DNA of 64,000 bases, taken from the NCBI GenBank assembly GCA_945893145.1, contig CAMDDZ010000010.1:1-64000 (forward strand). Direction: 5' to 3'. The stretch is from Rhodoplanes serenus (GTDB lineage: Bacteria; Pseudomonadota; Alphaproteobacteria; Rhizobiales; Xanthobacteraceae). The translations under genes were made by a program, and so were the position numbers. Position 1 is the first letter of the stretch. Each line of letters begins with the position of its first letter. Below the pieces are notes generated by a model. The model was not told the DNA's origin, made no database searches, and was given only the letters and a program-made list of their open reading frames with translations. Below are positions 5,829 to 8,421 of the stretch, piece after piece.

Positions 5829-7037
5829 CTACGTTCCCCAGCCGGTCTTCAACCGAACCGGCTTGTAGTTGTCGAAGCCGACGCCGGAGACCGCGTGGAA
5901 GAATCCGTCCTGCCACTGGCCGACGGTCCAGTATCGCGCGAGCCGCTGCTTGCGGATATCGGTGTTGTCGCCGACAACGGTCTTGAACGTGTGGGTCTTG
6001 AGGTGGTTGATGATGGCTTCGCGATCGAACGAGCCAACCGCCTCGAAGGTCTGCGTCAGGATCTGAAGGAACGTGTAGTACAGCGGGCTCGCCCAGTAGT
6101 CGGCGTCGACGCCGGTCACTTCCTTGTGCTTTCTGTAGTACTCGCGGATTTCCGGCGAGTCCTGGATGCCGCCTGCGCCAAGCACGTTCTCGATCGAGTT
6201 ACCGAACTTCGCCCTGAACGCTGGGAATGCAACCGCGACCGCGCTGTAATAGGCCTTCACGTTCAACCCTTCGATTTTGGCCTGCTCGGCCAGCCCGAAG
6301 GTGTCCGGCGGATAAGACCACGCGACGAATGCGTCCGGGTTGGCGGCCTTCGCCGCCTTCATCACCGGCGAGTAGTCCTGCGTGCCGAGCGGATACGATT
6401 TGTCGTAAACGATTTCGAAGCCGGCTTGCTGAAAGATCGGCCGGCCGGCGTTGGCGAGTTCGATGCCGAACGCGTCCGCTACGTTCACGATCGCGACCTT
6501 GTTGCCGATCTTGCCTTCGTCTTTCAGCTTCTTCAGCACGTTGGCAGCACTCTGCGCAAACGCGCTGGTGGAGCCCTGGACGAAGAACAGGCCTGGATAG
6601 CGCTGCGTCAGCGTGTCGATCTGGTCGGTGACCGCCGCCTGCGTGACCTGCGGATAGCCGTACTTGGCGTAGATCGGCGCCGCGGCGAGGTTATAGCCGG
6701 TGCCGTACACCGGCATGATGAAGTCGACCTTGTCCTGAGCGGCCAGCCGCTCCACCGCCTTGATGGTTTCGCCCGGCTGACTGCGGTCATCGTATTCGAT
6801 CAGTTCGACCTTGCGCTGGCCGCTCTTCATCTTGAGCCCGCCGCGCGCGTTGACCTCATGTTCCCACAACTTGAAATTCGGAAAGTGGCTGACCGCGGCG
6901 CCGCTTGCCATCACGCCGGTGCGCGGCCCGATCACGCCGATCTTGACGGTGGCGTCCTGTGCCCTCGCAGCCCGAAAGCCGAATGGTCCAGCCAGAGCCG
7001 CCGCGCCAGCACCCTTGAGTACGGTTCTTCGATGCAT
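5829..7037 (-). CDS. ABC transporter substrate-binding protein, LivK/Peripla_BP_6 family
   Basis: This 402-residue protein starts with an RR-containing signal peptide (MHRRTVLKGAGAAALAGPFG, cleavage near AARAQ) compatible with Tat or Sec export. The mature part opens ATVKIGVIGPRTGVMASG and contains YDDRSQPGETIKAVERLAAQDKVDFIMPVYG, typical of the type I periplasmic binding fold of HAAT systems. It would capture the solute in the periplasm for LivHMGF. It is the first gene of the operon and has a strong GGGAGG ribosome-binding site six bases before its ATG. Leu/Ile/Val binding cannot be assumed. The downstream monooxygenases favour an aromatic or xenobiotic ligand. Confidence 0.92.
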   Translation of the reverse strand: MHRRTVLKGAGAAALAGPFGFRAARAQDATVKIGVIGPRTGVMASGAAVSHFPNFKLWEHEVNARGGLKMKSGQRKVELIEYDDRSQPGETIKAVERLAAQDKVDFIMPVYGTGYNLAAAPIYAKYGYPQVTQAAVTDQIDTLTQRYPGLFFVQGSTSAFAQSAANVLKKLKDEGKIGNKVAIVNVADAFGIELANAGRPIFQQAGFEIVYDKSYPLGTQDYSPVMKAAKAANPDAFVAWSYPPDTFGLAEQAKIEGLNVKAYYSAVAVAFPAFRAKFGNSIENVLGAGGIQDSPEIREYYRKHKEVTGVDADYWASPLYYTFLQILTQTFEAVGSFDREAIINHLKTHTFKTVVGDNTDIRKQRLARYWTVGQWQDGFFHAVSGVGFDNYKPVRLKTGWGT

Positions 7038-7093
7038 TTTGTCCTCCCAGACAACGTGACAATTTTATTTGGGTAGCTGCCCACCCATTGAGG

Positions 7094-7123
7094 ATAGCGT
7101 GATCGTGGGAGGCCGCAAGTCAA
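7094..7123 (-). promoter_or_regulatory. possible sigma-70-type promoter of the importer operon
   Basis: On the minus strand TTGACT (7118-7123) lies 18 bases before CGCTAT (7094-7099), about 57 bases ahead of the binding-protein start. The -35 match is good and the -10 match is weak, so this is tentative. Confidence 0.3.
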
Positions 7124-7341
7124 GTAACCACCTGTAGCAACTGTGATTGTGTAAGCGTTCAGGATCGTCCTGACGGCCATGGCCGATGCCGGCTGTTGGC
7201 ACTTTTCAGACTTGCGCACATCGCCGGCTTCACGAGCCAAGCGGACAATCCCCAATCCCCAGCCGGCGCGAATTTACCGGTTTACAAATCGAACGAATAA
7301 GTGCACTAGGTTTACTGTCCTATCCATCCGAGGGCGTTCTC
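7124..7341. other. intergenic stretch without recognisable gene
   Basis: This AT-richer segment lies upstream of both the importer operon (minus) and the small reading frame at 7342 (plus). I find no coding frame with a ribosome-binding site. A TTTACA at 7281-7286 could be a -35 element for a plus-strand transcript, but no convincing -10 follows it. Confidence 0.4.
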
Positions 7342-7395
7342 ATGAGACGTCATTTGAGCGGGGTGGGATGCGGCGCCTGCGGATTGGCCTCGTAA
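7342..7395 (+). CDS. putative 17-residue cysteine-containing leader peptide
   Basis: An ATG at 7342 preceded by GAGGG with a 7-base spacer opens a frame for MRRHLSGVGCGACGLAS. The peptide is short and basic at its N-terminus, with two cysteines in a C-x-x-C arrangement (residues 10 and 13). It sits at the head of a strongly structured segment that ends in a second ribosome-binding site and ATG, which is the layout of a regulatory upstream reading frame. No homologue is known to me. The call rests on the ribosome-binding site and on context, so it could be a chance frame. Confidence 0.35.
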   Translation: MRRHLSGVGCGACGLAS

Positions 7396-7782
7396 CCCAA
7401 TTCCCGGGAGGCCTCGGGTAACCGTCCCCCCTACTATGAGGGGCGCCCAGCTTTGGGTGACACGGGGACCGGATGAACGGCGGCGTAAGCCGCCGGGATC
7501 AAGGCGAGCGCGAGCTCGCTGCCGGTTCTTGTCAGTTACGGTTCCGAGACGCCCAAAATCGCCGCGATGGAGCGTCGGCCGGCGACGCGCCCACGAATTT
7601 GGGCGCCACGCCGGTTAGTCCCCGGCGGAGCAATCCGCCTGCGGATGAGGCGTGATCGAGATGTGGCGTCGACCGGCGCTCCATCCCCTCGGGTTTTTCC
7701 GAGGGACCACCGACACGGCGCCCGGGCGCCGAACCAATCCCGGCGATCGCGCACGTCTGCAGCACAAAGGAACCACGAGATG
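7396..7782 (+). ncRNA. candidate structured leader RNA, orphaned from its gene
   Basis: The plus strand can fold into at least three hairpins capped by GNRA tetraloops: 7478-7495 (7 bp, GTAA), 7504-7519 (6 bp, GCGA) and 7624-7639 (6 bp, GCAA). A 7-bp hairpin with loop GTTTTT lies at 7686-7705 and a 16-base perfect palindrome at 7716-7731. Two 8-bp long-range pairings cross each other (7550-7557 with 7598-7605, and 7567-7574 with 7677-7684), and the second competes with a local hairpin at 7572-7588, as in a switch. AAAGG at 7766 then precedes an ATG at 7780, but that frame only runs antisense through the YbjN-like gene. It does not match RNase P, tmRNA, SRP or 6S RNA consensus strings that I know. 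Confidence 0.42.
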
Positions 7783-7830
7783 GATGCTCGCCACCTCGAC
7801 CAACGATGGCGCAAGGAGCAACGCTTGATA

Positions 7831-7871
7831 ATAAAAAGCTCGCGGGCGGCGTCCGATAGCGGCCGCCCGCG
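7831..7871 (-). terminator. intrinsic terminator of the YbjN-like gene
   Basis: On the minus strand a perfect 10-bp stem (7862-7871 with 7841-7850) closes an 11-base loop and is followed by AGC and a T-rich run. It starts 10 bases after the stop codon of the YbjN-like gene and should end minus-strand transcription before the structured region. Confidence 0.8.
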
Positions 7872-7881
7872 GATGCTGCGA

Positions 7882-8421
7882 CTAGAAGCCGATGTGCTTG
7901 CGGAACGACGCGGCCTGCCGCTTCATGATGCTGAAGTAGGCGCGGAACGCTTCGGCCGGCTTGGACCCGGTGTCCTCGAACAAGGCATCGACCTCGATGC
8001 GTGCGCTGTGCTTGCCGTCGTTCTGCTTGCGATAGTAGGCCCGTGCATAGCGCTGATCGGTGTTCCAGCTGTTGATGGTCGCAAGCGGGATCGCATTGTC
8101 CATGATGTAGGACGTATAGAACTGCAGGCTTCGGCAGCCCCGCCGCTCCAATTCGCCGCTCTTGTCGCAATTGAAGAAGAAGATCACCCAGAGAAAATTA
8201 TCGACGCGCACGCGGATCTGCGGATCGCCGTCCTCGCTGGGCTCGACGTCGGGCTTGAGGTTCAAGTCGCGCAGCTCGTTGGCGACGACGCGCGCGGTGA
8301 CGCGATCGGATTGTGCGTGAGCGGCGCCCGCGGTGAACAGCCAGGCGAGGCATGCGACAGCAATCGAAAGCCGCAGGCCCAACCGGTTCAGTTTGAAGTC
8401 GCGACCAATATGCAGTGTCAC
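7882..8421 (-). CDS. YbjN domain-containing exported protein
   Basis: The 179-residue product begins with a signal peptide (hydrophobic run IAVACLAWLFTAG, likely cleavage after AAHA). The mature part resembles the YbjN fold: VTARVVANELRDLNLKPDV, then DPQIRVRVDNFLWVIFFFNC, a cysteine-containing turn and the helical NSWNTDQRYARAYYRKQ segment that characterises the family. YbjN proteins resemble type III secretion chaperones and have no settled biochemical role. The start is a GTG with GGGAGG seven bases upstream. It lies 27 bases after the decarboxylase beta gene and could share its transcript. A strong terminator follows. Confidence 0.75.
   Translation of the reverse strand: MTLHIGRDFKLNRLGLRLSIAVACLAWLFTAGAAHAQSDRVTARVVANELRDLNLKPDVEPSEDGDPQIRVRVDNFLWVIFFFNCDKSGELERRGCRSLQFYTSYIMDNAIPLATINSWNTDQRYARAYYRKQNDGKHSARIEVDALFEDTGSKPAEAFRAYFSIMKRQAASFRKHIGF

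Follow-up and report, generated by a model that had tools for sequence, protein, structure and literature searches.

The window analysed here is a stretch of 64,000 nucleotides of Rhodoplanes serenus DNA. On its plus strand, a segment at 7316-7765 lies between two minus-strand genes, a periplasmic binding protein gene (5829-7037) and a YbjN domain gene (7882-8421). A preliminary description of this gap saw a leader-like RNA with several hairpins and crossing long-range stems, and offered two readings, a leader whose regulated gene had been lost or an RNA that now acts in trans. The question raised by this locus is which kind of element the segment represents. The observation is confirmed by the analysis, and the orphan-leader interpretation is mostly not borne out. 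The segment is probably one member of a dispersed family of genes, each specifying a structured, trans-acting noncoding RNA of ~440 nt, a reading to which we assign a probability of about 0.68.

Structure and covariation of the RNA

The features of the element are collected in Table 1. The conserved RNA has its 5' end at ~7316 and not at 7342 as first proposed, and homology stops at ~7765-7780. The three GNRA hairpins, the U-loop hairpin and the 16-base palindrome are all present in the sequence as described. The long-range crossing pairing was also recovered, as a stem that can form across P1, and its 3' strand belongs to the U-loop hairpin too.

Table 1. Positions in the window of the RNA, its predicted helices and its flanking signals.
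Feature	Position	Strand	Basis or remark
Putative promoter, class A, TTTACAAATCGAACGAATAAG...	7281..7315	+	common to type-A copies of the R. serenus genome; weak here
Whole structured noncoding RNA	7316..7765	+	3' limit approximate; R1 match 7316-7416, 108.5 bits
P1, 7317-7325 with 7361-7369	7317..7369	+	covariation helix 1, both-side changes in 6/10 pairs
Crossing stem, 5' strand CCGAGGG; partner 7686-7692 (CCCTCGG)	7328..7334	+	sequence; crosses P1
P2 hairpin CGTTC-TC-ATGA-GACG-TCAT-TT-GAGCG	7335..7360	+	covariation helix 2, both-side changes in 5/8 pairs
Central-domain closing stem, 5' strand GCGGCG; partner CGCCGC 7560-7565	7370..7375	+	sequence
P3/P4 stem and CUCGUAA-loop hairpin	7376..7411	+	covariation helices 4 and 5 (5' domain)
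Long-range stem, 5' strand CCTCGGG...ACCGT; partner 7538-7548	7412..7425	+	central-domain helix 1, both-side changes in 4/10 pairs
Hairpin with conserved ACTAY loop	7428..7443	+	central-domain helix 2, both-side changes in 5/6 pairs
Hairpin GCCCA...TGGGT	7445..7458	+	central-domain helix 3, both-side changes in 2/4 pairs
GNRA hairpin, loop GTAA at 7485, 7-bp stem	7478..7495	+	sequence; central-domain helices 4 and 5
GNRA hairpin, loop GCGA at 7510, 7 bp	7503..7520	+	sequence
Long-range stem, 3' strand ACGGTTCCGAG	7538..7548	+	central-domain covariation count
P10, 5' strand CGATGGAGCGTCGG; partner 7673-7685	7565..7578	+	P10 pattern variants
GNRA hairpin inside P10 arm, loop GCAA at 7630, 6 bp	7624..7639	+	sequence
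P10, 3' strand CCGGCGCTCCATC	7673..7685	+	P10 pattern variants
P11 U-loop hairpin; 5' arm doubles as partner of 7328-7334	7686..7705	+	sequence
16-base palindrome CGGCGCCCGGGCGCCG	7716..7731	+	sequence
3' H-type pseudoknot, stem in palindrome 7716-7731, loop CCGGG with CCCGG 7739-7743	7716..7743	+	pseudoknot scan
RBS-like GGAACCACGAG then ATG	7769..7782	+	by eye in many type-A copies of the R. serenus genome; no shared ORF

The structure goes beyond chance, since the plus strand of the segment has a folding energy of -235.2 kcal/mol (z = -4.0) that none of 100 shuffled sequences reached, and since its helices covary across species. Aligning 82 copies over their full length with MAFFT left too many gaps (1142 columns), so alignments of separate domains were used. 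The 5' domain is represented by a covariance model, R1, with 32 sequences and 101 positions, after L012 and L014 were dropped from 34. Dereplication reduced the 96 central-domain segments to 45, and 37 sequences were aligned after eight were dropped, L241 for an insert near its 3' end and L014, L028, L034, L057, L079, L085 and L111 as other or unlike modules; pairs in this domain were counted on the RNAalifold structure. In R1, 92.9% of cells are paired (slid controls 38-55%) and 17 of 33 pairs have changes on both sides, and in the central domain 95.0% of cells are paired (slid controls 36-56%) with both-side changes in 15 of 25 pairs. The covariation score was reached by none of 500 shuffles in either domain; among the five measures applied to R1, the number of both-side-changed pairs was reached by 1/500 shuffles and the number of pair types by 8/500. 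Relatedness can inflate covariation scores and a structure derived from an alignment favours itself, so most weight is given here to the large number of distinct pair types.

The long-range pairings differ in how far they can be assessed. P10 variants are matched on the opposite strand (GGAGCG/CGCTCC, GGGGCG/CGCCCC and GGCGCG/CGCGCC). A P10 pattern was matched in 63 of the 82 non-redundant copies and in none of the other 19, with a mean of 11.2 of 12 positions paired compared to 10.5 with swapped partners, where the highest of 1000 swaps gave 10.7. The 3' H-type pseudoknot was matched in 43 of 72 anchored copies (10/82 have no anchor) versus 13-18 in five shuffles, these being score-based matches, some of differing kind. 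The window copy is among the matched copies, and in the clear matches the loop and its partner vary together (CCGGG/CCCGG, CCCC/GGGG, GGCCCC/GGGGCC). The crossing stem GAGGG/CCCTC is nearly invariant by eye, with both CGAGGG/CCCTCG and TGAGGG/CCCTCA variants present and a C-A mismatch at the adjoining pair in several Tardiphaga copies; this stem is thus plausible and covariation is barely informative about it. The GCGGCG/CGCCGC stem is mostly invariant and thus weakly tested, and the many invariant candidate pairs of the core are no proof of pairing. As a whole, judged by comparative sequence evidence, the element is a real conserved structured RNA with a fold kept by compensatory changes.

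The same changes bear on the short reading frame that was proposed to lead the RNA from 7342. Its ATG is not conserved and lies in the covarying arm of P2, where ATGA becomes CCGGA in relatives while the partner TCAT becomes TTCGG, which identifies the supposed frame as a hairpin arm. A protein-coding remnant, named beforehand as a finding that would refute the RNA, was not seen either, as two overlapping plus-strand frames gave no Pfam match.

Copies, promoters and gene neighbourhood

The RNA is repeated in the R. serenus genome. A DNA search matched at least 40 places (the best 40 of 91 candidates) with 76-100% identity, and 38 of the 40 places listed, the query included, have at least 86% identity; R1 likewise gave at least 40 matches. 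From this genome 39 copies were fetched with flanks. Type-A copies are homologous across about 7281-7780, while type-B copies have the core in common to ~7692 and feature a different upstream region (TTGACT-N17-TATATT) and a different 3' tail. The frames downstream vary by place. Some copies are partial and located at contig ends, and the RNA repeats may explain why several assembly contigs end inside them. The central module of L057 and L061, both from this genome, differs and resembles that of other species (compare L014 and L034). The family looks mosaic, some copies having swapped their middle or tail modules. A palindromic repeat, GATCCCGAAAAGTGG...CCGGTTTTCGG...AAGATCATGC, is located just 3' of several copies (L044, L049, L061 and also L014).

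Promoter-like sites are frequent at the RNA start. A sigma-70-like promoter with at least 9 of 12 matches lies just 5' of it in 87 of 176 copies, which are related and so are not 176 independent tests, versus 13 of 3500 control positions, and the good promoters end a few bases 5' of the conserved start. In the R. serenus genome this score was reached by 5 of the 27 copies tested, and the window copy has a best score of 8 of 12. A search of 7038-7900 found no consensus promoter and no plus-strand terminator. In class C promoters (L306, L307, L309 and L317) the vicinity of the -35 region contains, by eye, the inverted repeat GGGGATA...ATCCCC, so a dimeric regulator may control them.

The flanks of the copies can be compared in the Tardiphaga group, where 40 loci were taken from Tardiphaga sp. 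P9-11, T. robiniae LMG 26467 and Vaf-07, and Bradyrhizobium sp. NFR13 (5 of its 7 copies). At least one flank is common to a locus of another genome in 37 of these 40 loci, and 37 cross-genome pairs have at least one common flank, 17 of them both. By eye, the promoter hexamers in this group are kept while the surrounding bases differ. L264 combines the left flank of one locus with the right flank of a second (compare L234 and L236), as if by recombination between RNA copies or by misassembly.

Downstream genes show no common pattern. The next gene is co-directional in 33 of 84 copies and opposed in 51, as assigned by a simple home-made gene caller based on codon usage. Clustering of the frames beside 116 copies revealed no convincing shared downstream gene, with one cluster of 99 loci joining unrelated overlapping frames, some of them through the RNA itself. 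Compensatory stem changes and a conserved downstream gene in relatives had been named beforehand as support for the leader-like RNA; the former were found and the latter was not. In L020, L021 and L023 a small Cys-rich protein (FWxxCPxxxCxRAxxC-like) is encoded ~450-700 nt after the RNA start, and weak similar matches occur near L013, L081, L235 and L249. The promoters, the conserved flanks, the often opposed next gene and the lack of a shared downstream gene together indicate that each copy is probably an independent gene for a noncoding RNA that acts in trans, which favours the second option of the preliminary description. Expression of the copies we infer from the promoters and from selection on the structure.

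Distribution, the boxA module and known RNAs

Within the genus, a DNA-level match is present in 9 of 11 genomes, the R. serenus genome included. R1 was found in 42 of 101 genomes of a set of relatives (again including it), in 16 of 397 genomes sampled from the order, spanning six families, and in 1 of 385 sampled from the class, which is the genome of the window itself. As far as searched, the family appears confined to one bacterial order. A DNA pattern gave 81 loci, 80 in named genomes and one in a viral contig, of which 51 were confirmed by the covariance model; confirmed bearers include Tardiphaga robiniae, Bradyrhizobium sp. NFR13, Rhodopseudomonas pseudopalustris and Pseudolabrys MAGs. 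The other 30, among them loci in Cupriavidus, Brucella, Leisingera and Azospirillum and the viral contig (L180), were unconfirmed, with L177-L179 lying outside the model scan. Dispersed copies number from one to at least 40 per bearing genome, with 10, 11, 14, 7, 17 and 2 copies (E up to 0.01) in six genomes found with the pattern, and congeners differ greatly in copy number. Among 20 places from five other families, picked by R1 match, most have the same 5' layout by eye, while L312 and L320 are more divergent and L311 and L313 are interrupted by contig ends. L275, L285, L293 and L295 of T. robiniae Vaf-07 form a divergent subfamily: promoter, P1, 3' pseudoknot and boxA are similar, but the middle is unlike. 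L285 also features, by eye, a frame of ~56 codons and a frame for a basic peptide. In L192, from genome G001, the central domain is broken by unlike sequence after GATGAGGG.

Part of the family carries a word resembling boxA, the antitermination element of rrn operons. It occurs 300-680 nt after the RNA start, mostly at 380-500 nt, in 57 of 148 copies versus 2 of 1430 control stretches, and by group in 0/18 copies of the R. serenus genome, 5/23 of the genus, 11/23 of G001, 19/34 of the Tardiphaga group and 22/50 of others; here too the copies are related and do not count as independent cases. The 12-mer GGCTGTTTGACA occurs 31 times in G001 and T. robiniae Vaf-07 (reversed control 3). Thirty of these occurrences were fetched, 20 of which were scanned for rRNA: 3 lie ~240-250 nt before 16S rRNA, 18 follow an R1 match (E up to 0.01), and the remaining 9 follow a tail of the RNA family by eye, 4 of them judged on 110 nt upstream. 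Searched against nine further genomes, the 11-mer GCTGTTTGACA matched 20 times (reversed control 11): 3 of these matches lie next to an R1 match, 3 are located ahead of 16S rRNA and the other 14 do neither; G036 and G128 contain the RNA without any match to the 11-mer. The exact 11-mer GCTGTTTGACA is absent from the whole R. serenus assembly, in which the rRNA operon is not assembled and a search for 16S rRNA found none. The word was found in none of the 20 other-family places, two of which end within 135 nt. A universal boxA was rejected on the results from the R. serenus genome, the other-family places and the further genomes, and boxA is best described as a frequent putative 3' module in part of the family. 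NusE is S10. In E. coli, NusB and NusE associate with BoxA in rRNA, as described in PMC4807359. For the boxA-bearing copies we infer a corresponding link to NusB and S10.

Comparison with named RNAs agrees with the preliminary finding that the element belongs to none of them. A covariance search with Rfam 15 gave no match above the gathering threshold in the whole window, and in 7000-8100 (E up to 10) only four unrelated matches far below the cut-off. OLE, GOLLD and ROOL have Rfam models, and phages or plasmids often carry the latter two. These large ornate bacterial RNAs are described as hundreds of nucleotides long, with an elaborate conserved fold and unclear function (PMC12286853), and the RNA studied here resembles that description (PMC12286853) in its length, its conserved elaborate fold and the lack of a required coding frame. 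The long fold with compensatory changes expected of a large ornate RNA is found. However, the family has no Rfam covariance match, occurs in one to at least 40 dispersed copies and partly carries boxA. Unlike GOLLD and ROOL, it lacks phage or plasmid matches in the copies tested: the window copy and a Tardiphaga copy matched neither, and a G001 copy matched no plasmid.

HEARO/omega RNA and the group II introns are also modelled in Rfam. HEARO/omega RNA of IscB-IsrB elements is likewise structured, a few hundred nucleotides long and repeated, and some copies share its leader-like layout near a start codon; however, the window RNA has no such Rfam match, no recurring IscB/IsrB-type nuclease ORF was noticed in the neighbour clusters of 116 copies, and with the promoter directly at the RNA start a variable guide stretch is not seen. 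The group II intron models for domain V and the intron ends gave no match. For a riboswitch or cis leader, neither a conserved co-directional downstream gene nor a leader frame was found. An rrn operon leader (boxB-boxA) is similar in that a hairpin (by eye) precedes GGCTGTTTGACA in G001 and Tardiphaga, and the element ahead of 16S rRNA in those genomes has the identical sequence; it differs in that here boxA is 3' of a structured RNA, no rRNA follows, and boxA is missing in many copies including that of the window.

Among described repeats, Br-REP1 and Br-REP2 of Bradyrhizobium also have many intergenic copies in related bacteria (PMC5082802). Their consensuses, as given in that paper, are ~20 and 40 nt and by eye unlike the window RNA, although Br-REP2 is there described as part of a larger element (PMC5082802). 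The Rhizobiales sRNAs SmelA075 and SmelA099 likewise have several copies per genome and hairpin modules; the description consulted (PMC3927594) mentions such modules and no crossing stems with a central domain. The text of a 50-genome ncRNA survey (PMC11109978), in the part consulted, has nothing corresponding, and no matching description was found in the open-licence literature searched. As neither Rfam nor that literature gave a match to a described family, the family appears to be new, with a caveat for the Rhizobiales-1 motif, a 2010 candidate that has no Rfam number in the table of PMC2864571 and so lies outside the Rfam comparison.

Alternative explanations and implications

The copies could instead be non-autonomous mobile elements. 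A transposase, reverse transcriptase or nuclease from another locus would then recognise the folded RNA or DNA, and the copies would spread selfishly, with a structure kept only for mobilisation. The many similar R. serenus copies in differing surroundings, the large copy-number gaps between congeners, the swapped middle or tail modules and the contigs that end inside copies fit such an element. This explanation is nevertheless unlikely, because nearly all Tardiphaga-group loci have a flank in common with another genome and their promoter hexamers persist amid differing bases; moreover, no recurrent transposase was seen in the neighbour clustering, terminal repeats and target duplications were not noticed by eye, and the plasmid and phage searches gave no match. 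Degraded coding sequence or a chance fold can be given almost no weight. Long open frames do cross the segment on both strands, as is usual at high G+C, but the compensatory changes in the 5' and central domains and the lack of a Pfam match oppose this explanation.

A cis-acting riboregulatory leader that has lost its gene in the window is improbable. The RBS-like stretch with an ATG that was taken as the end of a leader is indeed present, and by eye recurs in many type-A copies of this genome, yet it opens onto unrelated sequence; in L020, L021 and L023 the gene for the small Cys-rich protein, ~450-500 nt from the RNA start, would also suit a leader. The supposed leader ORF is a stem, however, the next gene is more often opposed than co-directional, the neighbours of 116 copies contain no shared downstream family, and about half of the copies have promoter-like sites of their own. 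The facing gene in 51/84 copies and the boxA-like word near the 3' end could also be read as a boundary element between genes, whose transcript or antitermination would make antisense RNA or block read-through into the facing gene. This is likewise improbable, as a co-directional gene follows 33/84 copies and a boundary does not need so elaborate a conserved fold.

If the segment is a gene of a trans-acting RNA family, each copy would be transcribed by itself, and its product, a folded RNA or a ribonucleoprotein, would act in trans. In the boxA-bearing part of the family, NusB-S10 would load onto boxA, and this loading may keep the polymerase going through the untranslated transcript or tie the RNA to the rRNA transcription machinery. 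The step may not apply to the R. serenus copies, since those examined have no boxA and many end in an RBS-like stretch. A multicopy stable RNA family wired partly into rRNA antitermination, by NusB-S10 loading on boxA and by borrowed processivity or factor titration, is a tentative proposal, and its standing was lowered by the absence of the boxA word from the other-family places.

Among bacterial RNAs, a length of several hundred nucleotides combined with a strongly conserved fold is uncommon, and several of the large structured examples have turned out to be catalysts, scaffolds or parts of molecular machines. If the wiring into antitermination is true, factor titration could tune ribosome synthesis in the Hyphomicrobiales. 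The presence of the RNA in cultured Tardiphaga and Rhodopseudomonas, together with the rrn boxA in several lineages, offers a direct experimental handle.
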